Source: Gloeobacter violaceus PCC 7421
GTDB taxonomy: Bacteria > Cyanobacteriota > Cyanobacteriia > Gloeobacterales > Gloeobacteraceae
DNA length: 64,000 nucleotides
Direction: 5' to 3'
Assembly: GCF_000011385.1 (NCBI RefSeq)
Contig: NC_005125.1
Location: 2,790,001 to 2,854,000 of the forward strand
A program made the position numbers and the translations under genes. The notes beneath the pieces are model-generated. The model had not been told where the DNA came from. It worked only from the letters and a program-made list of their open reading frames with translations, and did no database searches. Positions 6,758 to 64,000 of this stretch are shown one piece after another. Within the stretch, counting starts at the first letter, position 1. Every line of letters begins with the position of its first letter.

Positions 6758-6919
6758 ATGTTGAATCTGCTCTGGCTTGTGGTCGTCTTGATGGTCATTG
6801 CTGCACTACTGGGCTTCGGCGGCGTTGTCTCCTCGCTCCAAAGCGTTGCCTGGTTTTTGATTGTGGCAGCCGTTGTGCTGGCTGTGGTGGGCTTCGTGAC
6901 CGGCCGCCGCGCACTGTAA
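6758..6919 (+). CDS. DUF1328 small membrane protein (YtjA-like)
   Basis: The 53-residue protein begins MLNLLWLVVVLMVIAALLGF and has two hydrophobic helices joined by a short GVVSSLQS loop, ending in basic residues (GRRAL). This matches the DUF1328 family of small inner-membrane proteins of unknown role. The ATG at 6758 follows a purine-rich GAGAGGGAAAG site. An in-frame ATG at 6722 would add a polar, unconserved extension. Confidence 0.85.
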   Translation: MLNLLWLVVVLMVIAALLGFGGVVSSLQSVAWFLIVAAVVLAVVGFVTGRRAL

Positions 6920-7028
6920 ATCCATAGGTTCTGCGTTCCCGGTCCTGCCGGAGAAAGCCGAACGCACCTTCGTTGGCCCGTAATATTCTGTTAGAAAGTC
7001 AGCGGTAAATCATTCATGGCGATCTTGT

Positions 7029-54354: not shown

Positions 54355-55107
54355 CTACGCGCTCTGCCCCACCGGGAGCAAGAACTGCCGGGAGCAGTCC
54401 TTGCACAGCAACCGCTGTCGGTCATGGCGGTGCCCGTTGCGAGACAGGCGCTCGGAGCCACAGCGGGGGCATTTCATTACTTTCATTACCTGATCCGCAC
54501 CGCACGCTTCCCCGACGTGGGGGCGAAGGTACGCCCCGAGCAATTCGGGGATCTGGGCGAATAGACGGGTGCCATGGTCCTCGTCGCTTTGCAGGGCCCG
54601 CAGCACCAGAGCATTGCCTGCGTGGACGCAGACTTCCGCCAGCAGGTGGGCTTCCTCGGCCACGAGCCGCGGGTTGCGGCGGGTCAGGAGTTTCGCTGTG
54701 AAGCGGACGGCATCGGCGGTAAAACCTTCGTCGATGCTCTGGAAAATCTGGCGGCTCGTGTAGAAGAGCACAAAGACAACCCGGGAGGTCGCGTCGGCGA
54801 AGATCCCTGCGTAGGTCGCGAGCAGCTGTTGCATGAACCCCTCGAAACCCAATTTCTCGAGGGGTAGGGCGTCCAGCTGTGCCCAGGCGATGTGTACCCG
54901 CTCGATGTGTCGCTGTTCCAGGGCCTTAAAGAGAGCCCGCTTGTCGGGAAAAAATTGGTAGAGCGAACCGACGGCGGTCCCGGCGCGCTCCGCGATGCCG
55001 TGGGTGGTAGCCGCCTCGTAGCCCACTTCGGAGAACACCTCGGCGGCAGCCAGCAAAATCCGCTCGACGCGCTGTCGACCGCGCTCCTGTTTCGGGGTGC
55101 GGCGCAA
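54355..55107 (-). CDS. TetR family regulator fused at its C-terminus to an IS1-type zinc ribbon
   Basis: Residues 1 to about 205 form a TetR regulator. The helix-turn-helix is RVERILLAAAEVFSEVGYEA, then AERAGTAVGSLYQFFPDKRA. The last 45 residues, from MKCPRCGSERLSRNGHRHDR to LLCKDCSRQFLLPVGQSA, match the zinc ribbon at the start of IS1-family InsA proteins. The TetR stop codon appears to have been replaced by the inserted IS fragment. The gene diverges from a broken Rieske oxygenase, its likely target. Whether the chimera still works is unknown. Confidence 0.82.
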   Translation of the reverse strand: MRRTPKQERGRQRVERILLAAAEVFSEVGYEAATTHGIAERAGTAVGSLYQFFPDKRALFKALEQRHIERVHIAWAQLDALPLEKLGFEGFMQQLLATYAGIFADATSRVVFVLFYTSRQIFQSIDEGFTADAVRFTAKLLTRRNPRLVAEEAHLLAEVCVHAGNALVLRALQSDEDHGTRLFAQIPELLGAYLRPHVGEACGADQVMKVMKCPRCGSERLSRNGHRHDRQRLLCKDCSRQFLLPVGQSA

Positions 55108-55251
55108 CTGACCGGCGGGGTCTGATCTACTTGACGAATGTGACGTGCTCGTCGTATTGTGGCTCCGTAAGCGAGCTTTGCGTCAAGATCTTATCCCGTC
55201 AGCCGGGCAATTTGAGGGCTACAGCCACGGCGCCGGGCCTGGAGAGTGCTG

Positions 55252-56183
55252 ATGGAACCATTACTTCCCGGGGCGCCCTGGCTGGTCGCCCACCGTTCGA
55301 TGCTGGACAAAGAGCGGCCGCGGCGGATTACGTTGAACGGCCGCGACTACGTGCTGTGGCAGGACCGGCAGGGCGAGGTCTTCGCCCTCGACAACGTCTG
55401 CCCCCACATGCAGGCACCCCTCTCCGAGGGCTGGGTCTGTGCCGGGCGGATCACCTGCCCGTTCCACACCCTCGAATTCGACGCCCTGGAGCGGTGGTGG
55501 CGCGTCCCCTGGAGATCTTCGTCCTCGATGACTGCATCTGGACCTACGGCGGCTCGCTGCCACGGCTGCCCGTCCCCGAACTGCACGGTTGCCTTGCCCG
55601 GGATTACGAGTTTTTGGGCGTCGCGGGCGACCGGAGCCTGCAGGCGGACTTTCTGGCGAGCCTACTTGTCAACTACGACTTCAACCACCAGAACGGCACC
55701 CACCGGGAAATGTTTCGGGTCGTCTCCTGCACGGTCCCTAAATTTGAGCAGGACGGGCACCGCGCCCGGGTCGAGATGCAATTGATCCGCGCCGCCAACA
55801 CCGCCGCCGAATTCGTAAAGAACCCGGCGCTTGCCCTGCTGCCAAAGCAGATGAGCAACACCCTCGAATACGCCTTCCCCTCCACCACGGTCCTGTTTGC
55901 CGACGTCCCGTTCGGTCGCCTTGCCCAGGTGCACATCGTCTATCCCGAGACGGCAAATAGGACGCGCACGTTTATCCTGCTCTACGGACGGATCGCAAAC
56001 TCGCTACTGAAGCGCCTCCTGCGTAAGTCGTTACTGGCGGCGGCCAGTCAGGTCGTCGAGCAAGACGCCCGGGCGGTCGAAAGCCTCTACCCGCGCGAGA
56101 AGCCTGGGGTGCGGCTAGCCAAAGACGAGATCATGGCGTATGCCGAGCGGCTCTTCCGCGAGTGGCCTTTGGTCTCCCCATGA
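55252..56183 (+). pseudogene. Rieske (2Fe-2S) oxygenase, frameshifted
   Basis: The first part, from ATG at 55252 (GGAG seven bases upstream), contains the Rieske cluster ligands in CPHMQAPLSEGWVCAGRITC followed by PFH. Near position 55505 the homologous reading moves to another frame, which continues LEIFVLDDCIWTYGGSLPRL through to ALEYAFPSTTV-like sequence and ends at 56183. One frameshift, or a small deletion, splits the gene. The intact enzyme would be a ring-hydroxylating or related Rieske monooxygenase. The divergent TetR gene probably regulated it. Confidence 0.78.
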
Positions 56184-56303
56184 GCGCCAGAGGCGCTGCG
56201 GCGAACCGAAGACCGGTAGGGCCGGGGGAACCACCCCGGCCGCTGAATTTCGAGTATCAAGTTATTTGGGCTCTTGTTGCCTTTTGGTGATCCAAGACGC
56301 TTC

Positions 56304-56687
56304 TCACAATTCCATTCGGGGGCGTTCGGGAGGCAATTGTCTGCTGCGCACCCCGTCGGGTTTGACGACCGTCAACGCTCCACACAACCGTCCTCCAAGC
56401 TCTGCTATCACCCTGGAGACCAGTTCCGCTTGCTGCTCGTTGGTGACACCCTTGCTGTTGGTGCGCACCAACAAGACCCCCGCTGAGCGCAACCGCTGGC
56501 GCACCACCAGCTCGCCCAGATCCTTGTCCTCGGTGACAACCACAGCATCGAGCCGATTGCTGACAGCCAATACATCCTCGTCAGGCAAGCCGCGGTCCGT
56601 CTCATAGATCGAGTAGACGCCGTGGCCGTCAGTACGCAAACGTGCAATCAGCAAGGGATGAATGTTCTCGTCGGCCACAAAGTCCAC
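56304..56687 (-). CDS. DUF5615 PIN-like putative toxin
   Basis: The 127-residue protein begins MDFVADENIHPLLIARLRTD and has the PIN-like acidic residues in ADENI, LPDEDVL and VVTEDKDLGELV. DUF5615 proteins are predicted RNases and are encoded next to DUF433 antitoxins, as here. The gene begins directly after the end of the DUF433 gene. The frame is intact, unlike those of the toxins in the tRNA-Cys element. Confidence 0.85.
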   Translation of the reverse strand: MDFVADENIHPLLIARLRTDGHGVYSIYETDRGLPDEDVLAVSNRLDAVVVTEDKDLGELVVRQRLRSAGVLLVRTNSKGVTNEQQAELVSRVIAELGGRLCGALTVVKPDGVRSRQLPPERPRMEL

Positions 56688-56978
56688 TTATTGGCGAAGC
56701 CCGCGGTACTCGGCGAGCAGCCGGGCAATCGAATGGTGCTCATCGAAATCCGCCGCGAAGGCCAGCGCGGCGTCAATGCCCTCGGGGTACAGAGTCGGAT
56801 AGTCGGCGAGCATCTGCTCGCGTGTCTGCCCGGCGGCGAGCTTGTCGAGCAACCACTCGACGCCCAACCGGGTACCGTAAATGGCGGGTTTGCCGCCCAA
56901 TAGCCGGGGATCCTGCACGATCAATTGTCTCGGATCCGTCACCGCTGCCACGCGGGCCAATACCTGTTCTTTGAGCAC
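56688..56978 (-). CDS. DUF433 family antitoxin
   Basis: This 96-residue protein carries the DUF433 core: RQLIVQDPRLLGGKPAIYGT and LGVEWLLDKLAAGQTREQML, then ADYPTLYPEGIDAALAFAAD. The domain is a DNA-binding helix-turn-helix found in antitoxins. It directly precedes the DUF5615 toxin gene with no gap, forming a two-gene operon. Confidence 0.87.
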   Translation of the reverse strand: MLKEQVLARVAAVTDPRQLIVQDPRLLGGKPAIYGTRLGVEWLLDKLAAGQTREQMLADYPTLYPEGIDAALAFAADFDEHHSIARLLAEYRGLRQ

Positions 56979-57113
56979 GACCGACTCCTTGAGTTGACGG
57001 ATCGACTGAGTTTGCCTCCATTCCAGCCTAGCTTGCTACCACTTTTACTAGGCGACTTGGGTATGCACTCTCATTCGCCGTCCCCGTCGACCCCCTCGTC
57101 GACTTTGAGCAAA

Positions 57114-57292
57114 TGAGGCCATCAATTTCCGGGGGATGCCTGCGGTGCGTGCAGTCCTTGGGTTCCCAGGTTCTTGTGAAGCAATGTCGTGTCGGTGTCG
57201 ATGTTTTCCCTGGGCCGTCCGGAGCATTTCTCAAGGGGCACATGAGTCTTCCCCTCCAGAAATCCTCCCACCCCCGAAAATTGATGGCCTCA
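57114..57292. repeat. Small inverted-repeat element (MITE-like), 179 bp
   Basis: The two ends, beginning TGAGGCCATCAATTTCCGGG and ending with its near-exact complement, form terminal inverted repeats of about 22 bp. No transposase is encoded in between. A solo copy of the same end lies at 52712-52735. The element fills most of the 380-base gap between the DUF433 and usp genes. No clear target duplication is visible. Confidence 0.7.
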
Positions 57293-57360
57293 ACTGGTAC
57301 GGACCAGAATTCCTTGATGCCAGGAACATCCTTAAATACTTTGTCGAAAAATCCAAGTAA

Positions 57361-57810
57361 CTACCGCACAACCAACACCGGGCAGTGGGCGTGGTGGATG
57401 ACGTAGTCGCTGACGCTGCCCAGCATCAGGCGCTGGACGCTACCCAGGCCCCGCGAGCCGATGACCAGGATGTCGGGTTTTTCTTGCTCGGCCACTTCGC
57501 AGATCGTGTCGCGGGCGTGGCCGAATTCCAGGCGGGTCTGATAATCGACTCCGGCCGCCTCGCAGAGTTTGGCGCCTTTTTCGAGGGCGGCCTCGCCGAC
57601 GGAGCGGGCGATTTGTTCAAGTTCGGCAAGGGGCGGTCCCTGGTAGAGCGGTTCGCCGGTCGGGAGCATCCCCGGCCAAAAAGTGGCGTTCGCCTGCTCG
57701 GCCACCGTGAGCAACAGCAGCGACGCACCGGTCGGTTTGGCCAGTTCGAGCGCCTTGGCCAGGGCGCTCAGGCCCGTCTCCGAGCCGTCGATGGCAACCA
57801 GAAATTTCAT
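57361..57810 (-). CDS. Universal stress protein UspA family
   Basis: The 149-residue protein starts MKFLVAIDGSETGLSALAKA and ends with the ATP-binding signature VIGSRGLGSVQRLMLGSVSD followed by YVIHHAHCPVLVVR. This G-2x-G-9x-G(S/T) pattern marks the ATP-binding subclass. The ATG at 57810 fits the family. A second, truncated copy of this gene's end abuts the IS3 element at 47749-47801. Confidence 0.94.
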   Translation of the reverse strand: MKFLVAIDGSETGLSALAKALELAKPTGASLLLLTVAEQANATFWPGMLPTGEPLYQGPPLAELEQIARSVGEAALEKGAKLCEAAGVDYQTRLEFGHARDTICEVAEQEKPDILVIGSRGLGSVQRLMLGSVSDYVIHHAHCPVLVVR

Positions 57811-57933
57811 GAGATAACCGCGTCTTGTCGCGGGCTGGGTAGATTCGATCATCTTACGCGGGCGGGAGCGGCGGATACGGCGGTTCTTGCGGACTGTTAA
57901 CCTGAGGGCAAACCCGCCCGCTGTCGCGCGCCC

Positions 57934-60756
57934 ATGCTGCCGTCCGTTCTGGTGCTCATCGCTGCTTTTGTTTTGGGGGGAGTGCCCCTGAGCGGCTGGC
58001 TTTTCCGGCTCGCCACGGGTAAAGATCTGAGGAATCTGGGCACCGGCAACGTCAGCGTGGCGGCAGCCTTTTTGCACGGTGGGCGGGTGGTCGGAATTGG
58101 CGCCGCTCTCGTGGAGGCTTCGCGGGGAATCGCCGCGGTGTTCGCAGCCCAAACGTTTTCGAGCGCGCCGGAGTGGCCGCTTTTGGCCCTGAGCGCCCTG
58201 GTGGCGGGCCGCTTCTGGATCGGTCGCGCGGCGGGGGCCACCAACGCCTGGTGGGGATTGGTCGTCTTCGCCCCGGTGGTCACTTACCTGGTCACCCTGG
58301 TCGGGTTGGTGCCCTGGGCGATCTATCGCGGACGCACCGGCCGCCGCCGCGCCGAGCTTGCCACCCTGGTGGCCCTGCCGGTGGCGTTTTACTTTCAAAG
58401 CGGCCAGCTCCTCACCACCGGGGCGGCGGCCTTACTCTCGCTGTGGCTGGGATACGCGCTGTTGCGCGTGCCCGACGACATGGAGCTTACCCGGCAATCC
58501 AGCAAGCCGCCGAGCCTCGATCTCGACCTCGATCCCGGCGCAGTGGGACCGAAGGCCGCCAACCTCAGCAAGCTCAAAAAAGCCGGATTGCCGGTGCCCG
58601 GCGGCTGGGTGTTGCTGAGCGAAAATACCCCCGAGCAGTTGCTCGCTATCGCTGCTCCTAGTCCCGAAGCACCCTGGATCGTGCGCTCCTCGGCCACCGG
58701 CGAAGACACCGTCGCCAATTCCGCGGCGGGCCAGTACCTGAGCGTGGCGGATGTGACCAACCCGGCCGGGTTCATCGAAGCGACAGCCCGGGTGCGGGCG
58801 AGCTACGACATCCCTGCCGCCACGGCCTACCGCCGTGACCGGAAGATTGCCGACGGCCGCATGGCGGTGCTGGTGCAGCCGCAGATCCGGGGAGTCTGGT
58901 CAGGAGTGGTCTTCACCCGCGATCCAGTGGACGGTAGCGAAGTGCTGGTCGTCGAAGCGCTTCCCGGCGGGGCGGCGGCGGTGGTGGGCGGTCAGCGCAC
59001 CCCCGAGCGGGCCGTGATCGACCGGGCGAGCGGTGCTGTCGAATCGAGCGCCATCCCCCACCCGATCCTCGCAGCGCTCCAGGGGGCGGCCCTGAAGGTG
59101 GAAGGACTATTCGAGGGGGTTCCCCAGGACATCGAGTGGACCTGGGACGGCGAGCGCCTGTGGCTGTTGCAGGCGCGGCCGGTCACCGCTCTGCAGCCGG
59201 TCTGGACCCGCACGATCGCAGCGGAGGTGATCCCCGGCACCATCCGGCCCCTCACCTGGTCGATCAACCGGCCCCTCACCTGCGGCGTCTGGGGCGAAAT
59301 TTTCACGATCGTGCTGGGCAAGCGGGCGGTAGGCATCGACTTTGGCGAGACGGCGACGCTGTTGGACGGCTGGGCTTACTTCAACGCGACGCTGCTCGGG
59401 GATATTTTCTTGCGCATGGGCCTGCCCCCGGAGAGCCTCGATTTTCTCTACCGCGGCAGCCGCTTCTCCCGCCCGCCGCCGGGCAGCGTTCTTGCCAACC
59501 TGCCGGGGCTGTTGCGCCTATTGGGCCGGGATCTGAGCCTGGAGGGCGACTTTCGCCGCACCGACAAAGATTTGCTCGGGCCGCTCATGGCGACCCTGGC
59601 GGACGAAAACGTCGATCGCCTCACTCCAAAACAACTGGTCGGCCGGGCCGAGCGCATCCAGGTGGGACTCAGGCTGGTCACTTACTTCAACATCCTGGCA
59701 CCTTTGGGACTATCGCTGCGGCGCGCGCTTCTGGGGGTGAACGAGGACTGGCTGGGGACGGAGGCGACCGCCGAGGTGCGCGCCGTCAGAGAACTGGGGG
59801 CTATGGCCACAGAAGCGCGATCCCGGCTCGGCAACTTGGCCGATACGGGCGATCTCCCCCAGGTGAAAGCGGCCCTGCAAACCACCCCGATCCCCGCCCA
59901 ACTCGACAGATTTATCGAACGCTTCGGTTACCTGAGCGAGGTGGGCACCGACATCGCCGTGCCCACCTGGAGCGAGCATCCCGAGACGATCCGCGATCTG
60001 TTCCTCGCCATGGTCCAGATTCCCCGGCAGCCGGTCGAACGCTCGCAGCCCCGGCGGCCCTGGGACTCTCTGCGCAGCGCCCTGTGCCGCCCGCGCGCCC
60101 GCACCCGCGCCCGCGTGTCGGAGATCTACGACCAGCTTCTGGCGTACCTGCGCTGGACTTTTACGGCCCTGGAGCGGCAGTGGCGCTCCGGCGGGCTTTT
60201 GGAATCCGAGGGCGACATTTTCTTTTTGACCCAGGACGAAATCTTGGCCCTGGCGCGGGGCGAATTGGCGGGTGAGCCGCGTGCCCTGGTGGCCTCGCGG
60301 CGGGCCGAATACGAGCGTCAGTGCCGCCGCCGGGTGCCCCGGGTGGTCTACGGTATGCAAATTCCCGAGCAGACGGCCGAACCCGAGACCATAGCCGCCA
60401 CCGGACGCCTCAAAGGGATCGCCGCCAGCCGCGGCCGGGTCGAAGGGGTGGTGCGGGTGCTCAAATCGGTGAGCGCCACGGTGCGCCTCGATGCCGACAC
60501 GGTGCTGGTGGTGCCCTACACCGACGCCGGTTGGGCACCGGTGCTCGCCCAGGCCCGCGCCATCGTCTGCGAGGCGGGCGGCAGGCTCTCCCACGGCGCC
60601 ATCGTCGCCCGCGAGTACGGCCTGCCCGCGGTGATGAACGTCATCGGAGCGACAGCACTGCTCGCCGACGGCCAGCGGGTGCGCGTCGACGGCGGTGCGG
60701 GCACCGTCGAAATCCTTGGCGCGGATCCTCACGCGGGGGAAAAACCTACAGCTTGA
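57934..60756 (+). CDS. PlsY-like acyltransferase fused to PEP-synthase-type domains
   Basis: Residues 1 to about 185 form a polytopic membrane domain related to glycerol-3-phosphate acyltransferase PlsY (VLGGVPLSGWLFRLATGKDL, then RNLGTGNVSVAAAFLHGGRV). Residues about 195-430 match the ATP-grasp PEP/pyruvate-binding domain (GPKAANLSKLKKAGLPVPGG, WIVRSSATGEDT, DIEWTWDGERLWLLQARPVT). A helical region follows, and residues 810-930 form a PEP-utilising mobile domain with the phospho-His in CEAGGRLSHGAIVAREYG (His887). No stop or shift separates the parts. The role of the fused kinase-like half is unknown. The start 57934 is an ATG. Confidence 0.85.
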   Translation: MLPSVLVLIAAFVLGGVPLSGWLFRLATGKDLRNLGTGNVSVAAAFLHGGRVVGIGAALVEASRGIAAVFAAQTFSSAPEWPLLALSALVAGRFWIGRAAGATNAWWGLVVFAPVVTYLVTLVGLVPWAIYRGRTGRRRAELATLVALPVAFYFQSGQLLTTGAAALLSLWLGYALLRVPDDMELTRQSSKPPSLDLDLDPGAVGPKAANLSKLKKAGLPVPGGWVLLSENTPEQLLAIAAPSPEAPWIVRSSATGEDTVANSAAGQYLSVADVTNPAGFIEATARVRASYDIPAATAYRRDRKIADGRMAVLVQPQIRGVWSGVVFTRDPVDGSEVLVVEALPGGAAAVVGGQRTPERAVIDRASGAVESSAIPHPILAALQGAALKVEGLFEGVPQDIEWTWDGERLWLLQARPVTALQPVWTRTIAAEVIPGTIRPLTWSINRPLTCGVWGEIFTIVLGKRAVGIDFGETATLLDGWAYFNATLLGDIFLRMGLPPESLDFLYRGSRFSRPPPGSVLANLPGLLRLLGRDLSLEGDFRRTDKDLLGPLMATLADENVDRLTPKQLVGRAERIQVGLRLVTYFNILAPLGLSLRRALLGVNEDWLGTEATAEVRAVRELGAMATEARSRLGNLADTGDLPQVKAALQTTPIPAQLDRFIERFGYLSEVGTDIAVPTWSEHPETIRDLFLAMVQIPRQPVERSQPRRPWDSLRSALCRPRARTRARVSEIYDQLLAYLRWTFTALERQWRSGGLLESEGDIFFLTQDEILALARGELAGEPRALVASRRAEYERQCRRRVPRVVYGMQIPEQTAEPETIAATGRLKGIAASRGRVEGVVRVLKSVSATVRLDADTVLVVPYTDAGWAPVLAQARAIVCEAGGRLSHGAIVAREYGLPAVMNVIGATALLADGQRVRVDGGAGTVEILGADPHAGEKPTA

Positions 60757-60774
60757 ACGTCCCGACGGCTGGGA

Positions 60775-61884
60775 ATGCTAAAATCCAGCCAATTTCGATG
60801 GGGTCCAATTGGTTCGGTGGCACAGCTTCCCATTCGGCAAACGATTTTTCAGTGGAGCGAACGCCTGCCGGCACCGCTCAGGCGCTACGGGCTTTTGGGT
60901 GTGGGCCTGCTCATCCCGGCATTGATGCTGCTCACTTCCCAGCCGAGCTACCTGGCCAATGTCGCGGTGACCGTGGCGGTTTACATGGTGCTGGCCATGG
61001 GGCTCAACATCGTGGTCGGCCTGGCGGGCCTGTTGGATCTGGGCTACATCGCCTTTTTCGCGGTGGGCGCCTATACCTACGCCATCGGGGCGCCCCATGG
61101 CCTCAGCTTCTGGCTCGCCCTGCCGGTGGCTGCACTGCTTGCCGCCGGTTTCGGGGTGCTTCTGGGGGCACCGACTTTGCCCTTGCGCGGCGACTACCTG
61201 GCCATCGTCACCCTCGGTTTCGGCGAAATCATCCGCATCTCGCTCAACAACCTCGACTGGCTCACCCGCGGTCCGGCGGGCATCAGCGGTGTACCCGCAC
61301 CCGTGATCCCCTGGATAGGCGCCAAAGGCTTCACCTGGCTCACGCTCTATCAGCCGCTGCAACTCTATTTCATCGCGCTTGCCTTCGTCGCCTTTGTCTA
61401 CTGGATGACCAGCCGCCTGAAGCAGTCGCGCGTCGGCCGCGCCTGGGTAGCCATCCGCGAGGATGAGATTGCCGCCGCCGCCATGGGCGTCGACACCGTC
61501 AAGCTCAAGCTCCTGGCCTTCGCCACCGGGGCGGCCCTGGCCGGCATGGTCGGGGTGCTCTTTGCCGTGCAGCTCACCTATGTCTCCCCCGACAGCTTCA
61601 CCCTGATCGAATCGGTGATGGTCGTCTCGATGGTGGTCCTGGGAGGGATGGGATCGGTGCCCGGGGTGGCCCTTGGGGCTTTGATCCTAATTGTCCTGCC
61701 GGAGGCGCTCCGGGGCTTTTCCGAGTACCGGCTGCTGTTATTTGGCGCGGCGATGATCCTGGTGATGCTCATCCGTCCCCAGGGATTATTGGGCGAGCGG
61801 CAGGGCGTGCCGCCCCGGCCTACAGGAGCCGGTCTTGAAGACGAAACGCCGCTCGAAGTCGAAAAGCGCGACCTGCCGGTGTAA
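60775..61884 (+). CDS. livM: Branched-chain amino acid ABC transporter permease LivM
   Basis: This 369-residue inner-membrane permease has the LivM signatures VYMVLAMGLNIVVGLAGLLD, LGYIAFFAVGAYTYAI, LRGDYLAIVTLGFGEIIRIS and the cytoplasmic loop SRVGRAWVAIREDEIAAAAM that contacts the ATPases. The partner genes livH, livG, livF and livJ are not in the window. The start at 60775 leaves 18 bases after the PlsY fusion gene, so the two may be co-transcribed. Confidence 0.92.
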   Translation: MLKSSQFRWGPIGSVAQLPIRQTIFQWSERLPAPLRRYGLLGVGLLIPALMLLTSQPSYLANVAVTVAVYMVLAMGLNIVVGLAGLLDLGYIAFFAVGAYTYAIGAPHGLSFWLALPVAALLAAGFGVLLGAPTLPLRGDYLAIVTLGFGEIIRISLNNLDWLTRGPAGISGVPAPVIPWIGAKGFTWLTLYQPLQLYFIALAFVAFVYWMTSRLKQSRVGRAWVAIREDEIAAAAMGVDTVKLKLLAFATGAALAGMVGVLFAVQLTYVSPDSFTLIESVMVVSMVVLGGMGSVPGVALGALILIVLPEALRGFSEYRLLLFGAAMILVMLIRPQGLLGERQGVPPRPTGAGLEDETPLEVEKRDLPV

Positions 61885-61912
61885 CACCCAAATTGTTTCT
61901 GCCTGCAACAGG

Positions 61913-61942
61913 TTGAACCTGGAACGGTTCAAGATCTTTTTT
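61913..61942 (+). terminator. Terminator after livM
   Basis: TTGAACC pairs with GGTTCAA across a six-base loop, and six T residues follow after a GATC spacer. It lies 28 bases past the livM stop. Confidence 0.6.
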
Positions 61943-61949
61943 CAAACAA

Positions 61950-62176
61950 CTTGTTAGGGATGTACTGTCCGGTCGCCACAATCGCAGCTCCCCTGGCGGA
62001 CTCATGCCGAAGCGCACCCCCAACTGTGGGCTTACCCAGCCTTCCATCCGCTCGATACCCACCAATGCCGCTCCCTCGCGTACAAACCCGTCCAATGTGC
62101 CTTCGTCCGGGTCGTAAAGGTAATACTCTTCAACGCCGTGGCGATGGTAGAAGCTTACTGTTTTGGGGCAGGTCAT
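61950..62176 (-). pseudogene. Truncated Uma2 family gene
   Basis: Only the C-terminal third of a Uma2/DUF820 protein remains: FYHRHGVEEYYLYDPDEGTL, then GWVSPQLGVRFGMSPPGELR. The conserved nuclease core is missing because homology stops abruptly near 62160, where the cassette-like genes on the plus strand begin. The frame runs on to 61820 inside livM, but that part is not conserved. Confidence 0.7.
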
Positions 62177-62182
62177 TTACAC

Positions 62183-62611
62183 ATGCGCTCAATTGTCATT
62201 CATCTTGCCGACACTACGCGCGAAGCAGTTCGCACCCAGCTTTCTGAGATTGCCGAGTATACTAGCGGCGACGAGTGGCGCTATCCCCATCGCTCATCCG
62301 CACCCGTCCTCTACATTCAGTTCTACGACGATTACGAGAGAGAGGTTGAGCCGGGCGAGATGAATTCACTGGCGTCCGAGTTGGACCAGATGCCCTCCGT
62401 AAGCATCATTGCTCATGTTTCCGGTCGTGTGCCAGGCGGGGCTGAGGTCAGATGGTTCACGGAGTCCGTCCTGGGAACTTTTCGCGGGCTTGCGCAGGAC
62501 GAGTATTCACCTCATTACTGGACGGTTGCGGAGATTCGTTCGCAGGCGATTGCACACGGGCATCCGTTTTTTGACTATGAAGGCTGGCATGAAAACACAC
62601 CAGCGGTCTAA
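62183..62611 (+). CDS. Cassette-type hypothetical protein, 142 residues
   Basis: The predicted soluble protein begins MRSIVIHLADTTREAVRTQL. It has no signal peptide or membrane segment and is rich in aromatic and acidic residues (YIQFYDDYEREVEPGEMNSL). The TAA stop lies inside the attC core GTCTAAC, as is common for integron cassette genes. I do not recognise a characterised family. The ATG at 62183 is the first after the breakpoint; an in-frame start at 62138 would lie in the truncated Uma2 gene. Confidence 0.65.
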   Translation: MRSIVIHLADTTREAVRTQLSEIAEYTSGDEWRYPHRSSAPVLYIQFYDDYEREVEPGEMNSLASELDQMPSVSIIAHVSGRVPGGAEVRWFTESVLGTFRGLAQDEYSPHYWTVAEIRSQAIAHGHPFFDYEGWHENTPAV

Positions 62612-62698
62612 CCATGCGGCGCAGCGAACCCGGCCATCGCACCCTGGTTGCAAGCGCATCCCCTCGCAAGCCGGGTCGCTGAGCTTGGGTCGTTAGAC
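62606..62698 (+). other. attC recombination site
   Basis: The site begins with GTCTAAC (RYYYAAC core) and ends with the complementary GTTAGAC (GTTRRRY core). Inside, CAGCGAACCCGGC at 62622-62634 pairs with GCCGGGTCGCTG at 62670-62681 with one unpaired A, the extrahelical-base pattern typical of folded attC hairpins. The length is 93 bp. The next ATG follows six bases after the core. Confidence 0.85.
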
Positions 62699-62703
62699 GG
62701 CGA

Positions 62704-63018
62704 ATGGAGACCCCTCCACCAAGTGCCACTGCAGCGCAAATCATCGAGGTGCTTCGGCAACTAGGCGGCATGCCGATACTTGTGGCGCTTGACGATAGGC
62801 GGATCCTAACAGTCCACAATATCGCGTGGGGCCAAGACTTCGCCGATCCCGAATACCACGTCACGACGAACATTAGCCCCGTGCCAAATGTGCCCCACGT
62901 TGTTGACGTCTTTAGTACCGCAGCCGTTGTACGAATCACTGACCCCATTTCCGGAGACGTACACTTCGATAAGTCGTCGCCGTCCAACAACGCGTTGGAG
63001 CGAACGCGGGAGGAATAA
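62704..63018 (+). CDS. Cassette-type hypothetical protein, 104 residues
   Basis: A soluble protein starting METPPPSATAAQIIEVLRQL, with a central region (GMPILVALDDRRILTVHNIA) of alternating hydrophobic residues suggesting beta strands. It ends SNNALERTREE, a tail often produced when a cassette gene reads into its own attC-derived sequence. It begins six bases after the attC core. No function recognised. Confidence 0.65.
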   Translation: METPPPSATAAQIIEVLRQLGGMPILVALDDRRILTVHNIAWGQDFADPEYHVTTNISPVPNVPHVVDVFSTAAVVRITDPISGDVHFDKSSPSNNALERTREE

Positions 63019-63089
63019 AGTGCTAGCATTCAGAACACATCAGCGCGTCGCCTAACGCGGACGTCAGGCGTCATTAGCACGTCACTCCC

Positions 63090-63368
63090 ATGGAGCTACA
63101 CGAAATGGCAGACCGCGTGGATTCCAAGGAGACGTTCTTGGAGTTCGTTGGGGCTTTGCGCGCCGATTGGGAGACATCGCGTGCTGAGGAGAGCGCACAG
63201 CCATCGTCACCATGTAGCCCAGCCGCACGCGGCTGGGAGAATCCTGACCTTGGGCGCTTTCTTGGGGCGTTGCACGCTTGGACAGAGGACATGGGCGACC
63301 GAGTAGCACCGCAGCCGAGTTGGCGGACGTTCGCTGACATGTTGATGGCCGCCAAGATTTACGAGTAG
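63090..63368 (+). CDS. DUF7660-like small protein
   Basis: The 92-residue protein begins MELHEMADRVDSKETFLEFV and contains ARGWENPDLGRFLGALHAWT and the end SWRTFADMLMAAKIYE. This matches my recollection of the DUF7660 family, small acidic proteins of unknown function found in many bacteria. It is the third gene in the cassette-like row. The spacer before it (63019-63089) has short inverted repeats that may be a degenerate attC. Confidence 0.7.
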   Translation: MELHEMADRVDSKETFLEFVGALRADWETSRAEESAQPSSPCSPAARGWENPDLGRFLGALHAWTEDMGDRVAPQPSWRTFADMLMAAKIYE

Positions 63369-63449
63369 GATTTGAGAGTCACATGACCATGACGCCTAAA
63401 CTAAATTCGTTCCACTGTAACGGGCTGGTTATCCAGTAGAGAGCACGTC

Positions 63450-64000
63450 ATGGGATTAGGACTCGAAGTTGGAATACTGGCTGACCTCAAGACAGAGACG
63501 GTCGATGAAGAGGGCTACGAGTACTTTCGAAATCAATTCGATTTGCTCAACGCTCTGCTGAACAAGAACAACCTACCTGCCCACAACGAACCGGAAGATG
63601 TACCGATCTTCACTTGTGGTATGTACGGGTATGGAGGGCTCCACTATCTGCGGCGGATCGCGGCGCACCTACTCGTTAACGGCACTGTTCCCGATCCGTG
63701 TGTTGAGAATCCAACAGGTGATCTTGTATACCAGGAATGTTACGACGCAATCGCAACGATGCAGGATGCTCGATCACCTGAAGAAAAGCGATTTGATCAT
63801 CTGTTATGCCACAGCGACGCACAAGGATTTTATATCCCAGTCGAATTCGACGAAGTTCTATTGGATTTAGATGAAACTGGTCTCTTGGGTTTTCAAGTCG
63901 GGTCGTCGTCTGTCCTGGTACGAGAATGTACGGCGCTTGCAGAGGCTATCGGCCTGCCAACGGATATCGATCCGCAAGATGCCATATTGAATGACAACTG
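63450..64000 (+). CDS. Hypothetical protein, 3' end beyond the window
   Basis: An open frame from ATG at 63450 runs without a stop to the window edge (183 codons). The product begins MGLGLEVGILADLKTETVDE and continues GYEYFRNQFDLLNALLNKNN. Codon use and amino-acid composition look like a real soluble protein. The block FTCGMYGYGGLHYLRRIAAH may be a conserved core. I recognise no family. It is the fourth gene in the cassette-like row. Confidence 0.65.
   Translation, partial: MGLGLEVGILADLKTETVDEEGYEYFRNQFDLLNALLNKNNLPAHNEPEDVPIFTCGMYGYGGLHYLRRIAAHLLVNGTVPDPCVENPTGDLVYQECYDAIATMQDARSPEEKRFDHLLCHSDAQGFYIPVEFDEVLLDLDETGLLGFQVGSSSVLVRECTALAEAIGLPTDIDPQDAILNDN

Follow-up and report, generated by a model that had tools for sequence, protein, structure and literature searches.

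A probable integron gene-cassette array fragment without an integrase in the chromosome of Gloeobacter violaceus PCC 7421

In the chromosome of Gloeobacter violaceus PCC 7421, the remnant of a Uma2-family gene is followed by four consecutive small plus-strand ORFs of unrelated sequence, with a site resembling an integron attC between the first two. This raises the question of whether integron gene cassettes are present at this locus and, if so, by which route they arrived. We analyzed a window of 64,000 nucleotides (bases 2,790,001-2,854,000 of the single 4,659,019-base contig; the genome is 99.96% complete) and its continuation, L002, in which a window coordinate equals the L002 coordinate plus 60000. 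An earlier note on this DNA proposed that the array was either inserted at a secondary site or the edge of an integrase-bearing integron. The present results instead suggest, with a probability of approximately 0.92, that the segment is a cluster of attC sites lacking integrase (CALIN), which was gained by horizontal transfer as a fragment of an integron gene-cassette array and is decaying. The features are listed in Table 1.

Table 1. Features of the locus in window coordinates.
Feature	Position	Strand	Basis or remark
Left flank, native: ABC permease for branched-chain amino acids (BPD_transp_2; livM-like)	60775..61884	+	Pfam PF02653, E 1.2e-46
Uma2-family gene remnant, 186 bp	61967..62152	-	Homology ends sharply at 62152
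Foreign segment (probable CALIN)	62153..64126 (window end 64000; L002:4126)	+	No relative DNA match except attC; composition
ORF1, 142 aa, cassette gene 1	62183..62611	+	Stop codon inside attC1 core
attC1, intact, 93 bp	62606..62698	+	R'' 62606-62612, R' 62692-62698; L''/L' stem with extrahelical A
ORF2, 104 aa, cassette gene 2	62704..63018	+	Runs into attC2
attC2, degenerate	62982..63069	+	R'' GTCCAAC, R' GTCAGGC
ORF3, 92 aa, DUF7660 protein, cassette gene 3 (less certain)	63090..63368	+	Pfam PF24693, E 3.5e-20
attC3, candidate vestige	63385..63400	+	GACCATGAC and R''-like GCCTAAA; 3' half unrecognizable
ORF4, 223 aa, cassette gene 4 (less certain)	63450..64121 (L002:4121)	+	No attC behind

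The earlier note described attC1 as a site with complementary 7-bp cores and a stem with one extrahelical base, and each of these elements was confirmed. The two cores, GTCTAAC (R'') and GTTAGAC (R'), pair at 7/7 positions and match the consensus RYYYAAC / GTTRRRY, and the inner L''/L' stem (AGCGA-A-CCCGGC / GCCGGG-TCGCT) carries one extrahelical A. A pattern scan for matching cores and an inner stem found the site at 62606-62698 with a 7/7 core. None of 1000 dinucleotide-resampled inserts contained a 7/7 core with an equally good inner stem. Two covariance models, from which the window was excluded, both recognized the site: R1, which shows covarying stems and was built on 43 attC sites from other genomes, at 88.1 bits (E 2.4e-21; 64 kb window, filters off), and R2, built from 49 cyanobacterial attC sites, at 62.3 bits. 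The E-values of both models are rough according to the tool's own statement, which does not affect the bit scores. A missing covariance-model match had been named as a reason to abandon the proposal; the match was obtained, and the claim that this cyanobacterial chromosome contains integron gene cassettes and a genuine attC stands. The ORFs mostly lack a known function and G+C-rich DNA often contains short inverted repeats, which might point to a chance palindrome between unrelated native genes. However, the E-value of 2.4e-21 with an independent model, the occurrence of the same attC family in more than 100 contigs (see below) and the count of 0/1000 in the shuffles refute this reading, the likelihood of which we regard as negligible. 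When the bottom strand of attC1 was folded in silico as single-strand DNA, it formed the hairpin expected of an attC, including unpaired bases, but its advantage over shuffles was only mild (z -2.0). An Rfam cmscan of 55000-64000 revealed nothing relevant at the site.

A second site, attC2, had been missed by the earlier note. It is spaced 283 bp from attC1 and scored 26.3 bits with R1 (E 1.1e-4 over the window) and 27.3 bits with R2; the best unrelated place in the window reached 14.8 bits with R1. Its crossover triplet has changed from GTT to GTC, and the in-silico fold of its bottom strand did not give a single attC hairpin. The 16 bp at 63385-63400 are probably the vestige of a third attC. 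The leader GACCATGAC also stands directly 5' of R'' in the attC sites of L114, L116 and L157, and the candidate matched neither R1 nor R2. Behind ORF4, no attC was found by R2 up to L002:5000. Two other candidates were rejected: a right-end attC using GTTAGGC at L002:4226 lies in native DNA (approximately 80% identical to the congener G003) and had no covariance-model match, and an attC 3'-end remnant at the left edge (AGCTT...GTT) was not above chance. An imperfect 18-bp inverted repeat with one mismatch, between the livM-like gene (61397-61414) and the ORF3/ORF4 gap (63423-63440), is probably due to chance.

The four ORFs are present where the earlier note had placed them, with the fourth ending 121 bases past the window. 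As also described there, the ORF1 stop codon (TAA, 62609-62611) lies within R'' of attC1 and ORF2 begins right after the site; furthermore, the C terminus of ORF2 (NNALERTREE) is encoded within attC2. For ORF1, ORF2 and ORF4, Pfam gave no match above its threshold, and NCBIfam, PADLOC and PHROGs gave none at E 0.1. Since attC2 scores weakly and the boundary between ORF3 and ORF4 is marked by a 16-bp vestige, the cassette status of ORF3 and ORF4 is less certain than that of ORF1 and ORF2.

The composition of the insert differs from that of its surroundings. Its GC content is 54% versus 61% in the window, and the GC3 values of its genes are 48-68% (ORF4, 48%) versus 77-80% in the flanking genes. 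In a DNA search of 39 genomes, the insert had no match except at attC. Homologues were searched for in the order, in a sample of the phylum, in plasmids (all four ORFs) and in phages (ORF4 only). Among the eight other genomes of the order, the only hit was a distant homologue of ORF3 in G003 (45%), which is non-syntenic and located elsewhere in that genome; the congeners G001 and G002 had no match to any of the four proteins. Syntenic inheritance in close relatives, which would have argued for native genes, was thus not observed. In the phylum sample of 386 genomes, there were only three hits, all of them far homologues of either ORF3 or ORF4, and the retrieved attC-bearing contigs yielded no homologue of the four proteins. 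In the plasmid search, ORF1 had far relatives on Streptomyces plasmids only, and ORF4 had a full-length homologue (39%) on a Streptomyces plasmid. ORF2 had no homologue in plasmids or in the searched cyanobacterial genomes. A phage origin of ORF4 was rejected, as there was no match among 50,697 phage records.

The insert is bounded by sharp junctions with native DNA and comprises 1974 extra bp, reaching 126 bases past the window end; the earlier note had located the cassettes correctly and drawn the array too narrowly, at 62160-64000. On the left, the livM-like permease gene is 80-95% identical at the DNA level in three congeners. The Uma2 remnant is 82% identical to the intact Uma2 gene of G001 and 86% and 78% identical to two paralogues in the same genome, and the homology to the orthologue and both paralogues ends together at 62152. 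In G001, a 270-aa Uma2 gene directly adjoins an aldo/keto reductase gene with no cassettes between them, and this represents the uninterrupted locus. The same aldo/keto reductase neighbors the intact Uma2 gene in the congener, and approximately half of the Uma2 gene has been replaced by the insert. On the right, at 64126|64127, the native match to G003 resumes at L002:4127, six bases past the ORF4 stop codon, and the resumption point falls within a 121-aa ORF in G003. Native DNA is therefore missing, not merely split, on both sides of the insert. The livM-like gene is placed elsewhere relative to these genes in the congeners, so that the locus is also a rearrangement point.

These junctions bear on the proposal that an integron integrase acting in trans inserted the cassettes one by one at a secondary G|TT in Uma2, after which the far half of Uma2 was deleted. 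Insertion of this kind could occur in the order, because G007 possesses a complete intI, attC arrays and integrase-less clusters, and a GTT is present at 62160-62162. However, this GTT, beside which the earlier note had the array start, is part of the foreign DNA and is separated from the break by 8 bp. The break reads GAA|GCTTAC, and the Uma2 orthologue and one paralogue read GAACTG at this point, with no GTT. In addition, the 30-bp leader does not have an attC-like 3' end above chance (the background fraction scoring at least as high was 0.33-0.46), and the 5' half of Uma2 is absent from the right side. The locus has neither a native-G|TT-cassette junction nor a target gene split on both sides, and we consider secondary-site insertion decidedly improbable.

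The other proposal, that the locus is the edge of an integrase-bearing integron, did not hold, as native sequence returns at 64127 and the genome has no intI gene with the integron-specific patch. Across the genome, the best match to TIGR02249 reached 68 bits versus a cut-off of 265. The three tyrosine recombinases of the genome are far below the cut-off, and the nearest is approximately 245 kb away. In the phylum sample, 22/386 genomes have an IntI over the cut-off; many broken intI copies with in-frame stops or as fragments were also noted in Cyanobacteria besides these genomes. A Nostoc plasmid recombinase beside an attC-like site shares 26% identity with IntI, too little for it to be counted as one.

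Among the genomes of the order, G007 alone carries an intI over the cut-off, and it has the nearest complete integron found. In this chromosomal integron (G007:C1:152016-165309; L230), attC sites lie on both sides of a minus-strand intI (155438-156367), and the closest solved relative of the encoded IntI is IntI4 (structure 2A3V; E 6.7e-64). G007 also has attC clusters without IntI at approximately 769-777 kb, 2671-2680 kb and 3495-3519 kb. The present locus resembles the G007 integron in belonging to the same order, in having attC sites in an array and in the mostly uniform direction of its ORFs; in contrast, G007 carries IntI and has many shorter attC sites (approximately 60-90 bp). R2 also detected attC sites scattered in G003, G004, G005, G006, G008 and a second locus of the present genome (G000), with those of G006-G008 partly within the R2 training set. 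These genome-wide scans scored 150 candidates per genome, and weak sites may have been missed. The G007 integron and these scattered sites are consistent with a relic of an integron that resided in the order's ancestor and lost intI in this lineage. However, the locus is uninterrupted in the congener G001, no intI over the cut-off was found in G000-G006 or G008, and attC1 falls within a family dominated by Verrucomicrobiota, scoring 88 bits with R1 versus at most 55 for G007 sites among the 150 candidates scored. We therefore regard an ancestral relic as unlikely.

On sequence grounds, attC1 can be placed in a stereotyped attC family of 93 bp, most of whose members come from Verrucomicrobiota. 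A 24-base pattern from its 3' half matched at least 116 contigs in an exact scan of one-genome-per-species contigs. Among the matches listed, most were Verrucomicrobiota MAGs, with some from Cyanobacteria, Proteobacteria, Acidobacteria, Gemmatimonadota and others; seven viral contigs also matched. Of 79 sites picked from matching and related loci, most measured 92-95 bp (usually 93) and shared one layout. The family (L082-L204), which occurs mainly in Verrucomicrobiota and also in Cyanobacteria and other phyla, ends in GGGTCGCTGAGCTTGGGTCGTTAG. attC1 is a full-length member, with the same length of 93 bp, extrahelical A and spacer. Several contigs of the family hold two or more sites in tandem, and several carry an IntI-like gene approximately 38-62% identical to a cyanobacterial IntI, whereas the present locus has neither feature. 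The family membership of attC1 points to the Verrucomicrobiota as a likely source pool.

The working definition of a CALIN is at least two attC sites without an integrase (PMC9024848). As in the CALINs recognized by IntegronFinder (PMC9024848), the present locus has at least two nearby attC sites, attC1 and the weak attC2, and cassette ORFs on a replicon without an integrase. It differs from them in that only two attC sites are detectable, one of them degenerate, and the last cassette has no attC. We base the CALIN reading on one intact and one degenerate attC, short unidirectional ORFs of unrelated sequence, sharp native junctions and the lack of IntI in the genome. An integron integrase may have joined the cassettes by recombining the folded bottom strands of their attC sites, either in another cell or on a platform since lost. 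The block would then have arrived in one piece or been trimmed by deletions, which would have removed the attC of the last cassette along with parts of Uma2 and of a neighboring gene. The four genes would now be fixed in place. attC1 could still serve as a substrate were an IntI to enter the cell, whereas the GTT of attC2 has been lost. Three routes by which CALINs form are listed in PMC8618304: off-target insertion, intI loss and rearrangement. We favor rearrangement or deletion in the present case because native DNA is missing on both sides, which does not amount to proof.

Integrons or attC sites have already been reported from Cyanobacteria (PMC8352920, PMC8618304, PMC9668308), and the element is an ordinary one, real but of a known kind (CALIN). 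The part of the literature covered contained no paper reporting the locus, and it is quite possible that a genome-wide IntegronFinder survey detected it earlier. The locus shows that integron cassettes occur in a deep-branching lineage of the Cyanobacteria. Since the order has one complete integron and attC sites scattered elsewhere, it lends itself to studying how cassettes turn into fixed genes of the chromosome. We tentatively speculate that Gloeobacterales share a cassette pool with Verrucomicrobiota, and that a bearer of a G007-type IntI, or a passing integrase, might seed individual cassettes at many sites in relatives that lack an integrase, where they would be kept as fixed genes.

Examples of attC sites in genomes without IntI over the cut-off were noted in G003, G004 and G005 (L251:4405-4496; L252:4111-4197 and 6844-6929; L253:4769-4855; 30-43 bits with R2). 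The genome studied here has a second, solitary and well-folded attC at G000:C1:4142276-4142361 (L250:4276-4361), with an R2 score of 49.0 bits and a bottom-strand fold z of -4.2. Arr genes are known integron cargo, and this second site adjoins an opposite-strand gene for a 253-aa protein with TPR and rifampin ADP-ribosyltransferase parts (Arr-ms, E 2.5e-47; L250:3456-4217).
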